DNA of 47,975 nt, from NCBI GenBank assembly GCA_016882415.1, contig VGQL01000003.1:1-47975 (forward strand), written 5' to 3'. The first letter of the stretch is position 1; the number at the start of each line of letters is the position of its first letter. Below the pieces are notes generated by a model. It was not told the origin of the DNA and searched no databases. It saw nothing but the letters and a program-made list of their open reading frames with translations. This stretch comes from Cyanobacteria bacterium M_DeepCast_200m_mx_001 (lineage in GTDB: Bacteria > Cyanobacteriota > Cyanobacteriia > PCC-6307 > Cyanobiaceae). Positions 14,379 through 20,146 of the stretch are shown piece by piece. The translations under genes were made by a program, and so were the position numbers.

Positions 14379-15371
14379 TCAGGGCTGGGGCTGGGGTTCC
14401 GGTGTGGCTGCGGGCTGGTTCTGCAGCAGGGGCCGGCGCAGGGGGCTGTCGGGGCTGGCGAACACCGGCAGGATCTCCTTGCGGAAGGCATCGGCCGCCC
14501 GGGAGCAGTAGCGGGAGGGGTGGCTGATCAGCTTCAGCTGGCGGCGCACCGAGAGATCCGCCAGGGCCGGACGGTGCAGGCTGCCGGCGGCCAGCTCGCG
14601 CTCGATCGACACCACCGGCAGGAAAGCGGCCCCCAGGCCGCTCTGCACGGCGTTCTTGATGGCCTCAAAGGAGTTGAGCTCCATCTCGATCTTGAGGCGG
14701 GCCACATCCAGGCCCGAGCGGGCCAGCAGCTGGTCCACCATCTTGCGGGTGGTGGATTGGGCATCCAGGCACACGAAGCCCAGGCGGTAGAGGTCGTCCT
14801 TGCTGAGCTCGGGCAGACGGGCCAGGGGATGCTTGGTGGGCAACACCAGGGCCAGCTCATCACTGGCGTAGGGCACCACCTGCAGCAGCTCATTCAGTTC
14901 GCTGGGCAGCTCCCCGCCGATGATCGCCAGGTCGATCTGGCCATTGGCCACGCTCCAACCGGTGCGCCGGGTGCTGTGCACCTGCAGCTGCACGGCCACG
15001 TCGGGGTATTTCTGGCGGAACAGCCCGATCATCCGGGGCATCAGGTAGGTGCCCGTGGTCTGGCTGGCCCCCACAATCAGCGAGCCGCCCTTGAGGTTGT
15101 GCAGGTCGTCGAGGGCGCGGCAGGCCTCCTGGCACTGGCTGAGGATGCGATCGCAATAGCTGAGCAGCAGGTGCCCCGCCTCCGTGAGCTGGGCCTTGCG
15201 GCCGCCCCGGTCGAACAGGGAGACATCCAGCTGCTTCTCCAGGTTCTGGATCTGCAGGCTCACCGCCGGCTGGGTGACGTAGAGGCTGTCGGCGGCCTTC
15301 TTGAAACTGCCTTCGCTGGCGATGGCCCGCAGGATGCGCAGCTGATCAAGGGTGAAGGGCAGATCAGCCAT
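14379..15371 (-). CDS. rbcR: LysR-family regulator, RbcR/Ycf30 type
   Basis: The 330-residue protein has an N-terminal winged helix (about residues 6-65: [20 protein letters not shown], then [13 protein letters not shown]) and a LysR substrate-binding domain. The sequence closely resembles the cyanobacterial and plastid RbcR/Ycf30/CmpR group, which controls Rubisco, CO2-uptake or NDH genes in response to carbon metabolites. Among these, RbcR is the most likely because picocyanobacteria usually keep one such gene beside ndhF. It is divergent from the NnrU-like gene. A TAGAGT box lies 32 nt before the start (15409-15404). The last residues (PEPQPQP) are low complexity. Confidence 0.85.
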
Positions 15372-16297: not shown

Positions 16298-18310
16298 ATG
16301 CCCTCGCCCGCCGAACTCGCCTGGCTGATCCCGGTGTTGCCCCTGGCGGGGGCCTGCCTAGTGGGCCTGGGGCTGATCAGTTTCAACCGCACCATCAACC
16401 GGCTGCGCAAGCCCGTGGCGCTGCTGCTGATCAGCTGCGTGGGGGCGGCGGCGGTGCTGAGCTACGCCGTGCTGGCCCAGCAGCTGGCGGGGGCCGGCGC
16501 CACCGAGGTGCTGTTCAACTGGGCCAGCGCCGGCACCTTCACCCTGGAGATGGGCTTCCGGGTGGATGCCCTCGGGGCCGTGATGCTGGCCCTGGTCACC
16601 ACCATCGCCCTGCTGGTGATGGTGTACTCCGACGGCTACATGGCCCACGACAAGGGCTATGTGCGCTTCTTCACCTATCTGGCCCTGTTCAGCAGCTCGA
16701 TGCTGGGCCTGGTGATCAGCCCCAACCTGCTGGAGATCTATGTGTTCTGGGAGCTGGTGGGCATGTGCTCCTACCTGCTCGTGGGCTTCTGGTACGACCG
16801 CGATGGCGCGGCTAATGCCGCCCAGAAAGCCTTTGTGGTGAACCGGGTGGGCGACTTCGGCCTGCTGCTGGGGATCCTGGGGCTGTTCTGGGCCACGGGC
16901 AGCTTCGGCTTCGAGGAGATCGGCAGCCGCCTGCAGGAGGCCATCGCCAGCGGCAGCGTCAGCACCGCCGTGGCCGTGCTGCTCTGCCTGCTGGTGTTCA
17001 TGGGGCCGATGGCGAAATCCGCCCAGTTCCCCCTGCACGTGTGGCTGCCCGACGCCATGGAGGGCCCCACCCCGATCTCCGCCCTGATCCACGCCGCCAC
17101 CATGGTGGCGGCGGGTGTGTTCCTGGTGGCCCGGCTGCAGCCGGTGTATGTGCCCTTCCCCCAGGTGCAGCTGTTCATCGCCGTGATCGGCACGATCACC
17201 CTGGTTTTGGGGGCGTCGATCGCCCTCACCCAGATGGACCTCAAAAAGGGCCTGGCCTACAGCACCGTGAGCCAGCTCGGCTACATGATGCTGGCCATGG
17301 GCTGCGGGGCCCCGGTGGCGGGCATGTTCCACCTGGTGACCCACGCCTTCTTCAAGGCGATGCTGTTCCTGGGCTCCGGCTCGGTGATCCACGCCATGGA
17401 GGACGTGGTGGGGCACGAACCGGTGCTGGCCCAGGACATGCGCCTGATGGGGGGCCTGCGGCGCTGGATGCCCGTCACCAGCACCACCTTCTTCATCGGC
17501 TGCCTGGCCATCAGCGGCATCCCGCCCCTGGCGGGCTTCTGGAGCAAGGACGAAATCCTGGGCCAGGCCTTCGGCAGCTTCCCGTTGCTGTGGGCCGCCG
17601 GCTTCCTCACCGCCGGCATGACCGCCTTCTACATGTTCCGGCTCTACTTCCTCACCTTTGAGGGATCGTTCCGCGGCAACGACACGGCTCTGCAGGCCCA
17701 GCTGCTGGCGGCCGCCGGCAAGGGTGGTGAGGAGCACGGTGAGGGCCATGGCCACAGCCACGCCGAGCACCCCCATGAATCGGGCTGGCAGATGGCCATG
17801 CCCCTGGCGGTGCTGGCGGTGCCCTCGGTGCTGGTGGGTCTGCTGGGGGTGCCCTGGAACAGCCGCTTCGGCTTCCTGCTGGATCCCCACGAAGCCGCCG
17901 AGGTGGCAGAGCACTTCAGCTGGGGCGAGTTCCTGCCCCTGGCCGGCGCTTCGGTCACCATCTCGCTGGTGGGCATCACCGTGGCGGTGCTGGCCTACGC
18001 CCTGCGGCGCCTGGATCTGGGGGCCGCCGTGGCCGGCCGTTTCCCGGCGGTGAATGCCTTCCTGGCCAACAAGTGGTACCTCGACGACATCAACGACAAG
18101 TTGTTCGTGCAGGGCAGCCGCAAGCTGGCCCGCTCCGTGCTGGAGGTGGACTCCAAGGTGGTGGACGGCGTCGTGAACCTCACCGGCCTGGTGACCCTCG
18201 GCAGCGGCGAAGGCCTCAAATACTTCGAAACCGGCCGGGCGCAGTTCTATGCCCTGATCGTGTTCGGCGGCGTCATCGCCCTGGTGGTGCTCTTCGGCGC
18301 CCTCGGCTAA
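16298..18310 (+). CDS. ndhF: NAD(P)H-quinone oxidoreductase subunit 5 (NdhF1)
   Basis: NdhF1 is the distal proton-pumping subunit of the NDH-1L complex used in respiration and cyclic electron flow. The 670-residue protein shows the antiporter-like core (about residues 60-420), including FWELVGMCSYLLVGFWYDR, FPLHVWLPDAMEGPTPISALIHAATMV and LKKGLAYSTVSQLGYMMLA. A His-rich loop (six His within residues 478-495) precedes the C-terminal helices. The C-terminal part (NKWYLDDINDKLFVQGSR) fits the NdhF1/L-form rather than the CO2-uptake NdhF3 or F4. The ATG at 16298 is chosen because MPSPAELAWLIP starts the first helix. ndhD1 follows after a 204-nt gap. Confidence 0.96.
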   Translation: MPSPAELAWLIPVLPLAGACLVGLGLISFNRTINRLRKPVALLLISCVGAAAVLSYAVLAQQLAGAGATEVLFNWASAGTFTLEMGFRVDALGAVMLALVTTIALLVMVYSDGYMAHDKGYVRFFTYLALFSSSMLGLVISPNLLEIYVFWELVGMCSYLLVGFWYDRDGAANAAQKAFVVNRVGDFGLLLGILGLFWATGSFGFEEIGSRLQEAIASGSVSTAVAVLLCLLVFMGPMAKSAQFPLHVWLPDAMEGPTPISALIHAATMVAAGVFLVARLQPVYVPFPQVQLFIAVIGTITLVLGASIALTQMDLKKGLAYSTVSQLGYMMLAMGCGAPVAGMFHLVTHAFFKAMLFLGSGSVIHAMEDVVGHEPVLAQDMRLMGGLRRWMPVTSTTFFIGCLAISGIPPLAGFWSKDEILGQAFGSFPLLWAAGFLTAGMTAFYMFRLYFLTFEGSFRGNDTALQAQLLAAAGKGGEEHGEGHGHSHAEHPHESGWQMAMPLAVLAVPSVLVGLLGVPWNSRFGFLLDPHEAAEVAEHFSWGEFLPLAGASVTISLVGITVAVLAYALRRLDLGAAVAGRFPAVNAFLANKWYLDDINDKLFVQGSRKLARSVLEVDSKVVDGVVNLTGLVTLGSGEGLKYFETGRAQFYALIVFGGVIALVVLFGALG

Positions 18311-18362
18311 GCCCCAGCGTCAAACAGGCCCCTAGCCGTCAGATGCCCGCCTCCCTCCAAAT

Positions 18363-18428
18363 GGTTGGGGTGTTGCGCCGAGGCGATGTCCGCCCACGCG
18401 GTGAGCGCCTCGGCGCAACACCCCAACC
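18363..18428. repeat. Long perfect inverted repeat between ndhF1 and ndhD1
   Basis: The arms 18363-18385 and 18406-18428 are perfectly complementary over 23 bp. The 20-nt centre contains a further 4-bp stem (CCGC 18390-18393 / GCGG 18398-18401, loop CCAC). The structure begins 53 nt after the ndhF1 stop and ends 86 nt before the ndhD1 start. No U-run follows on either strand, so it is not a standard Rho-independent terminator. It could be an mRNA-stabilising or processing hairpin, a cruciform, or a small palindromic repeat element. I did not notice another copy in this window. Confidence 0.9.
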
Positions 18429-18484
18429 CACAACGCTCTGTGTGACATCCGGCACGGCAACCGGGCAGACCTGAGCAGGATTTC

Positions 18485-18490
18485 TACACT
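18485..18490 (+). promoter_or_regulatory. Possible -10 box for ndhD1
   Basis: TACACT ends 24 nt before the ndhD1 GTG start and lies 57 nt downstream of the inverted repeat. It suggests that ndhD1 has its own promoter, with the hairpin separating it from ndhF1. Confidence 0.4.
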
Positions 18491-18514
18491 CCGGCCAGCA
18501 CCCAGCGCCGATCA

Positions 18515-20146
18515 GTGCCCCTGGATTTCGCCGTCAGCCTGGCCACCGCCACAGCCCAGGCCAGCGGCACGGCCTTCCCCTGGCTCAGCGCCTCGATTCT
18601 GTTCCCGATCGCGGCCGCCCTCTGCATTCCCTTCGTGCCGGACAAGGGCGAGGGCAAGCAGGTGCGCTGGTTTGCCCTGGGGGTGGCGCTGACCACCTTC
18701 CTGCTCACCGTGGGCGGCTACCTAAACGGCTACGACCCCAGCAACCCCAACCTGCAGCTGGTGGAGAAGGTGAGCTGGCTGCCCGACCTGGGGCTGGCCT
18801 GGTCGGTGGGGGCCGACGGCATCTCGATGCCGCTGATCCTGCTCACCAGCTTCATCACCGCCCTGGCGGTGCTGGCGGCTTGGCCGGTGAGCTTTAAGCC
18901 GCGCTTGTTTTATTTCCTGCTGCTGGCCATGGATGGCGGCCAGATCGCCGTATTCGCCGTGCAGGACATGCTGCTGTTCTTCCTGGCCTGGGAACTGGAG
19001 CTGCTGCCGGTGTATCTGCTGCTGGCGATCTGGGGGGGCAAGAAACGTCAGTACGCCGCCACCAAATTCATCCTCTACACCGCTGGCAGCTCCCTGTTCA
19101 TCCTGCTGGCGGGCCTGGCGATGGCCTTCTACGGCGGCCACACCAGCTTCGATTACACCGATCTGATGGCCAAGGGCTTCTCGGTGAAGTTCCAGCTGCT
19201 GGCCTATGCGGGCCTGCTCATCGCCTTCGGCGTGAAGCTGCCGATCGTGCCGCTCCACACCTGGCTGCCGGATGCCCACGGGGAGGCCACGGCGCCGGTG
19301 CACATGCTGCTGGCCGGGATCCTGCTGAAGATGGGCGGCTACGCACTGCTGCGCTTCAACTGCCAGATCCTCCCGGACGCCCATGCGGTGTTCGCACCGC
19401 TGCTGGTGGTGCTGGGGGTGGTGAACATCATCTACGCCGCCCTCACCTCCTTCGCCCAGCGCAACCTCAAACGCAAGATCGCCTACAGCTCCATCAGCCA
19501 CATGGGCTTCGTGCTGATCGGCATCGGCAGCTTCAGCGCCCTGGGCTCCAGCGGAGCCATGTTGCAGATGATCAGCCACGGCCTGATCGGCGCCTCCCTG
19601 TTCTTCCTGGTGGGGGCCACCTACGACCGCACCCACACCCTGCAGCTCGATGAGATGGGCGGCGTGGGCCAAAAGATGCGCAAGATGTTTGCCCTCTGGA
19701 CCGTCTGCTCCCTGGCCTCCCTGGCCCTGCCGGGCATGAGCGGCTTCGTGAGTGAGCTGATGGTGTTCGTGGGCTTCGCCACCGATGAGGCCTACACGCT
19801 GCCGTTCCGCGTGGTGATCACCGGCCTGGCGGCCATCGGCGTGATCCTCACACCGATCTACCTGCTCTCGATGCTGCGGGAGATTTTCTACGGCAAGGAG
19901 AAGGCGGAACTGGTGGCCCACACCCACCTGGTGGATGCCGAACCGCGCGAGATCTACATCATCGGCTGCCTGCTGGTGCCGATCATCGGCATCGGGCTGT
20001 ACCCACGGCTGATGACCGACACCTACCGCGCCTCGATGGAGCAGCTGGTGGGGCTCGACAGCCGGGCGGTGCAGGCCCTCAATGCCCCCACCGGCTCCGC
20101 CGCCCTGATTCGGCAGGCGCCGCTGCGGGCTCCGGGGCTCGGGTAA
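18515..20146 (+). CDS. ndhD: NAD(P)H-quinone oxidoreductase subunit 4 (NdhD1)
   Basis: NdhD1 is a second antiporter-like proton-pumping subunit of NDH-1L, next to NdhF1 in the membrane arm. The 543-residue sequence contains the chain 4 blocks [38 protein letters not shown] (residue about 250) and [20 protein letters not shown]. It has about 14 hydrophobic segments. Pairing with ndhF1 supports the D1 form. The start is GTG, placed before a polar leader of about 22 residues and the first helix. Confidence 0.95.

Follow-up and report, generated by a model that had tools for sequence, protein, structure and literature searches.

A compensated hairpin without a U-tract at the ndhF1-ndhD1 junction of picocyanobacteria: a possible transcript boundary

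The window, i.e., the whole stretch of 47,975 nucleotides of cyanobacterial DNA analyzed here, carries a long palindrome between two NDH-1 genes, ndhF1 (NF005626, subunit 5) and ndhD1 (NF002713, subunit 4), both of which were above the NCBIfam cut-off. The question raised by this locus is whether the palindrome marks the end of one transcript, belongs to the promoter of the next gene, is a mobile repeat, or has no function. It is located 52 nt 3' of the ndhF1 stop codon (18308..18310, + strand) and upstream of the putative GTG start of ndhD1 (18515..18517, +), where both the open frame and the alignments analyzed here begin. The 5' arm (18363..18385, +) and the 3' arm (18406..18428, +), both recovered by direct reading, in the inverted-repeat listing and in the fold, are exact reverse complements over 23 bp. 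The apical part (18386..18405, +), as given by the fold and the alignment, consists of ATGT, a CCGC stem (18390-18393), a CCAC loop, a GCGG stem (18398-18401) and TGAG, so that the 20-nt centre has a 4-nt loop and four unpaired bases on each side of the inner stem. This agrees in full with the sequence-only reading of 18363-18428, which had reported 23-bp perfect arms, an inner 4-bp stem and a 20-nt centre. The same reading had regarded it as the longest perfect palindrome noticed in the window, and among the 25 longest of 55 inverted repeats it stood at the top as the longest of high identity; the sole full-length pair with 100% complementarity among those 25 had 15-bp arms. The minimum free energy of 18343-18448 was -63.6 kcal/mol, as compared with -36.0 +/- 3.5 in 200 dinucleotide shuffles (z = -7.93), none of which (0/200) was equally stable. 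The hairpin is real and beyond chance. Its flanks, read directly, are CAAAT on the 5' side and CACAACG on the 3' side, and the sequence that follows it, CACAACGCT, contains no U-run.

A conserved 17-bp box, CACAACGCTCTGTGTGA (18429..18445, +), begins at the foot of the hairpin and is likely the site of an ndhD regulator. At a near-fixed distance it is followed by TTTCTACACT (18481..18490, +), a putative -10-like element of ndhD; the TACACT box previously proposed for ndhD is present here, at 18485-18490. Of the 25 genomes of the genus, 24 carried the 17-bp box between ndhF and ndhD with no more than one mismatch, irrespective of the hairpin, and its distance to TTTCTACACT (38-50 nt accepted) was 43 nt in most junctions and 42-45 nt where both were found. 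The strict joint pattern occurred in 30/201 family genomes, its location at ndhD being confirmed only within the genus. The first element resembles the site of an activator and the second a -10 element, and both may serve ndhD as such. TGTGTG-type remnants are visible in the ndhF-ndhD junctions of Synechococcus and Prochlorococcus. A LysR-family regulator gene is located on the opposite strand (14379-15371, -), approximately 0.9 kb before the ndhF1 start, and its product is a candidate for binding the ndhD box; no model reached its cut-off for this gene among the 25 of 55 models listed.

The hairpin locus, a feature of small freshwater cyanobacteria, corresponds to the ndhF1-ndhD1 junction of the GTDB genus that includes Vulcanococcus limneticus, and this junction was located in 24 of the 25 genus genomes. 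It had been suggested that close relatives lacking the repeat would speak against a function connected with ndh, and the outcome was divided: a strongly covarying hairpin was carried by 13/24 congeneric junctions (L005, missed by the core pattern of the script, was counted by eye), and 11/24 had none. Nine of these 11 had spacers of at most 118 nt, the others 166 and 281 nt. Different long hairpins occurred at the ndhF-ndhD junction of other Cyanobium-type lineages. In the wider set with named relatives (104 loci, 84 different junctions of which were counted), 28 junctions had a perfect core of 8 bp or more no further than 40 nt from the box, and 56 had none. The spacer was at least 191 nt long in all 28 hairpin junctions and at most 182 nt in 47 of the 56 others, although these lengths vary slightly with the start of the NdhD match and some 66 nt of them are due to the hairpin where it is present. 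On a FastTree protein tree at least 12 changes of state were required for hairpin presence, which indicates that gains or losses are frequent and, together with the 56 junctions devoid of a hairpin, that many lineages manage without it. Three loci (L067, L076 and L119) had ndhF-ndhD spacers of 2626, 2227 and 1280 nt, respectively, far above the usual length. An NdhD of picocyanobacterial type (87% identity) is encoded on one contig (L099) recorded as a Bifidobacterium breve MAG; the record is mislabelled or contaminated.

Where present in the genus, the hairpin has been conserved in place and pairing. The 13 congeneric hairpins stand at the same position and have a related apical core, in which GCGGTGA was invariant in 13/13, with different but compensated arms. 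By eye, the lineages may share one apical internal-loop motif, a resemblance that we do not put forward as a claim. In their alignment 92.5% of 373 cells were paired, and this fraction dropped to 41.5-46.6% when one side was slid by 1-3 columns. Both sides had changed in 18 of 30 pairs; doubly changed cells amounted to 58 vs. 17.1 +/- 3.2 in shuffles and the covariation score to 0.413 vs. 0.112, the shuffles in both cases ignoring relatedness. Between the window and its closest genome (G007, which shares its exact junction sequence with Cyanobium sp. LBMAG epi.bin1, L045), the hairpin was 97.0% identical, the preceding spacer 64.8% and the genes 93%, and the two differences within the hairpin formed one compensated pair. 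In all nine pairs compared, the hairpin was more conserved than the spacer 5' of it; in six of the nine it fell behind the flanking genes, down to 67% through turnover of the arms. It is thus a locus-specific hairpin whose letters change rapidly under conserved position and pairing, and a stable hairpin 3' of a stop codon with compensatory change is what a boundary hairpin should present.

The placement of the palindromes within the spacer was restricted to its two edges. The 84 junctions contained 36 perfect inverted repeats (arms at least 12 bp, spacer up to 55), 12 at the ndhF stop and 24 on the box side, and none between. The 24 box-side repeats ended 6-15 nt 5' of the TGTGTG box upstream of ndhD and began at distances of 34-445 nt from the ndhF stop. 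The 12 stop-side repeats had their first base at -20 to +11 from the end of the stop codon, the repeat at +11 (L005) being counted here although classed as 'other' by the script. In some genomes (L009/L058, L066, L078, L082 and L095), a second long hairpin at this edge draws its 5' arm from the final codons of ndhF together with the complete or partial stop codon, and its 3' arm consequently mirrors coding sequence. No U-tract was present 3' of any of the 36 repeats, whether on the box side (24) or at the stop (12).

The reading we prefer, with roughly even confidence, is that this is a conserved transcript-boundary hairpin without a U-tract, which would end or protect the ndhF mRNA and shield the ndhD promoter. 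Among the roles proposed earlier, separation of two transcripts or a function at the ndhF 3' end still gives the best reading, and a small palindromic element of dispersed kind found no support. RNA polymerase that has passed ndhF1 would transcribe the palindrome, and the nascent RNA would fold into a very stable rod. The rod may mark the 3' end of the ndhF mRNA by hairpin-induced pausing and release in spite of the missing U-tract or, alternatively, longer transcripts may be trimmed back to it. In either case, transcription from ndhF would be kept off the ndhD promoter, which begins at the hairpin foot. More tentatively, and in our estimate doubtful, the long palindromes located at the ndhF stop and next to the ndhD box could together form a dedicated, U-tract-independent boundary of picocyanobacteria without Rho, renewed by template switching, in which the arm sequence is free and the geometry is kept. 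If true, this would give a natural and testable example of the as yet undescribed way in which cyanobacteria are presumed to terminate transcription. In any event, an extreme hairpin without a U-tract, repeatedly kept at one locus, offers a clean test of whether structure alone can end or protect a transcript, and the relatives with and without it represent a ready-made natural experiment. Isolates bearing a hairpin include Cyanobium usitatum Tous (L088) and Synechococcus sp. 8F6 (L082); Vulcanococcus limneticus LL (L084) is a relative without one.

The lock to the promoter side, on the other hand, suits a DNA element equally well. A cruciform or a protein-bound palindrome beside the ndhD box could set promoter output, e.g., as a supercoiling sensor, and in 28/28 junctions whose core came no further than 40 nt from this box, the hairpin had its 3' end 6-16 nt before it, with the distance to ndhF free. 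Moreover, G.U departures (11) were as common as A.C departures (10) among the 24 long hairpins of the box side, i.e., pairing was kept alike on both strands, which counts against selection on the sense RNA alone, expected to favour G.U. The stems also exceed the length that RNA function seems to need. However, junctions without a hairpin had an intact box at the usual distance from the -10-like element, and the two arms differed in make-up (5'/3' T-A 104 vs. A-T 23; G-C 236 vs. C-G 157 in the same 24 hairpins), the 5' arm being rich in T and G. Since the arm sequences turn over, only the apical core would be left for sequence-specific binding, and we consider an element acting at the DNA level unlikely.

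The way in which the arms change bears on the next alternative, a functionless palindrome made and kept near-perfect by template switching during replication and persisting through mutation alone. The outer stem, taken over all 13 hairpins, comprised 305 Watson-Crick cells, two G.U, six A.C and 12 of other kinds. Among 60 changes inferred on the tree, double transversions (28-31) outnumbered double transitions (8-10), and the other 20-24 were single or non-Watson-Crick, the ranges depending on tie-breaking; this excess of double transversions suggests that many paired changes bypassed G-U. Paired changes free of a G-U intermediate are expected of template switching, but strong selection against any mismatch could give the same pattern and may be the explanation instead. 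The few G-U steps, together with the lack of a strand preference in wobble pairs, fit a copying of one arm onto the other, and judged from the kinds of change the near-perfect arms are probably upheld by template switching. That this process can create and mend such stems is described in passages of PMC8794818, where Monttinen and Loytynoja also discuss such an asymmetry, in which G-C and U-A predominate on the 5' side. The hairpins treated in those passages are similar in their near-perfect stems, concerted changes of both arms and 5'-side excess of G-C and U-A; they differ in belonging to RNA genes (microRNAs, rRNA), whereas an intergenic palindrome of bacteria is concerned here (PMC8794818). 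The present locus thus provides a bacterial case of palindrome arms changing in concert, mostly without G-U steps.

Such a functionless origin would also account for the patchy presence of the hairpin, but the mismatches of the apical part are conserved and have not been mended, which argues that the apical core is under selection, and mutation alone would hardly confine palindromes to the two edges of the spacer. Long palindromes were, furthermore, rare in the other stretches scanned. In 20 stretches (400 kb) of the window genome beyond the window, no perfect inverted repeat of at least 16 bp was found and only one of at least 13 bp, the shuffle also giving one. A complete congener (G002; 2.4 of 2.79 Mb scanned) had 12 perfect inverted repeats with arms of at least 16 bp, some of them in IS-like elements or beside psbA by our own reading of the translations, and two of at least 20 bp (24 and 20 bp). 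In 2.4 Mb of Markov-1 control sequence (spacer 3-45), no perfect arm exceeded 14 bp. The ndhF-ndhD hairpin of this congener, with 26-bp perfect arms, lies outside the scanned 2.4 Mb. Across 80 named loci (520 kb), 12 repeats with arms of at least 20 bp fell within the 19.5 kb of ndhF-ndhD spacer, as against three in the other 500 kb, and these three (L056, L058 and L082) overlap the last codons of ndhF. Taken together, we regard a palindrome without function as rather improbable. The idea that long palindromes are a general terminator style of these genomes was likewise unsupported by the scans of 400 kb of the window genome and 2.4 Mb of G002.

The preferred boundary hairpin has to be distinguished from a canonical intrinsic terminator of ndhF. 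The likeness lies in a GC-rich hairpin between genes, 3' of a stop codon; the differences are a stem longer than 20 bp and the missing U-tract. The consensus scan found no U-tract terminator here, and at least four T in the next 9 nt were seen in 0/24 box-side hairpins, which bears out the earlier opinion that no simple intrinsic terminator is involved. A canonical terminator is already contradicted by the sequence and must be considered very unlikely. Over the first 40 kb of the window, the number of consensus U-tract terminators did not clearly exceed the chance level (9 vs. 6.7 +/- 3.1 and 8 vs. 5.7 +/- 2.2).

Transcript ends that lack a U-tract are known from other systems. According to parts of PMC13289151, cyanobacteria are without Rho, most transcription units of S. 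elongatus end elsewhere than at canonical terminators, and 75 of 163 defined ends without a U-tract in Synechococcus elongatus PCC 7942 are structured; most U-less ends of S. elongatus are nevertheless described there as unexplained by local structure, and REP-protected transcript ends are mentioned for E. coli. The hairpin studied here is like those structured 3' ends in lying 3' of a stop codon in a Rho-less host with no U-tract, and differs from them in being one locus with perfect arms of up to 28 bp at the next promoter (PMC13289151). No prior description of this hairpin was recognised in a literature search of open-licence PMC papers; in the part of PMC11316352 that combines Vulcanococcus with 'hairpin', the term is used for probe design only.

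The small mobile repeats of cyanobacteria are another class of intergenic palindrome with which the hairpin was compared. As far as searched, the hairpin is neither a canonical terminator nor a REP-type repeat. The REP families, GTAG- or CGTC-tagged in the portions of PMC3733652 that describe them, are also intergenic palindromes, but the present one was unrepeated as far as searched, is untagged, and has arms that are not conserved between species. The arm, with up to three mismatches allowed, occurred only at this hairpin in the window genome (1.18 Mb, 62.9% complete), and beyond the junction in the 25 genus genomes at one place only (G020:C36, three mismatches). Similarly, a covariance model built from the 13 hairpins, with 150 candidates scored per genome, matched the junction in 13 genomes and a single other place (G001:C4). 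The small palindromic element proposed earlier is therefore unsupported as a dispersed repeat. A REP, small mobile repeat or MITE is the least probable of the readings, for although the hairpin is palindromic, intergenic and patchy between relatives, both searches point to one locus per genome and its flanks, read directly, show neither GTAG nor CGTC at the stem foot. A known RNA family was also rejected, as no Rfam family reached the gathering cut-off in 17800-19000 and the best matches were to microRNA models and scored below half of the respective cut-offs. No phage relative of the junction was found by blastn against a phage collection. The one similar hairpin elsewhere in G001, which could be counted in favour of a mobile repeat, is an ndh-like hairpin (L039, G001:C4:20251-20320) between convergent gene ends, the flanking genes being what we take to be glmS and a mannose-1-phosphate guanylyltransferase gene.
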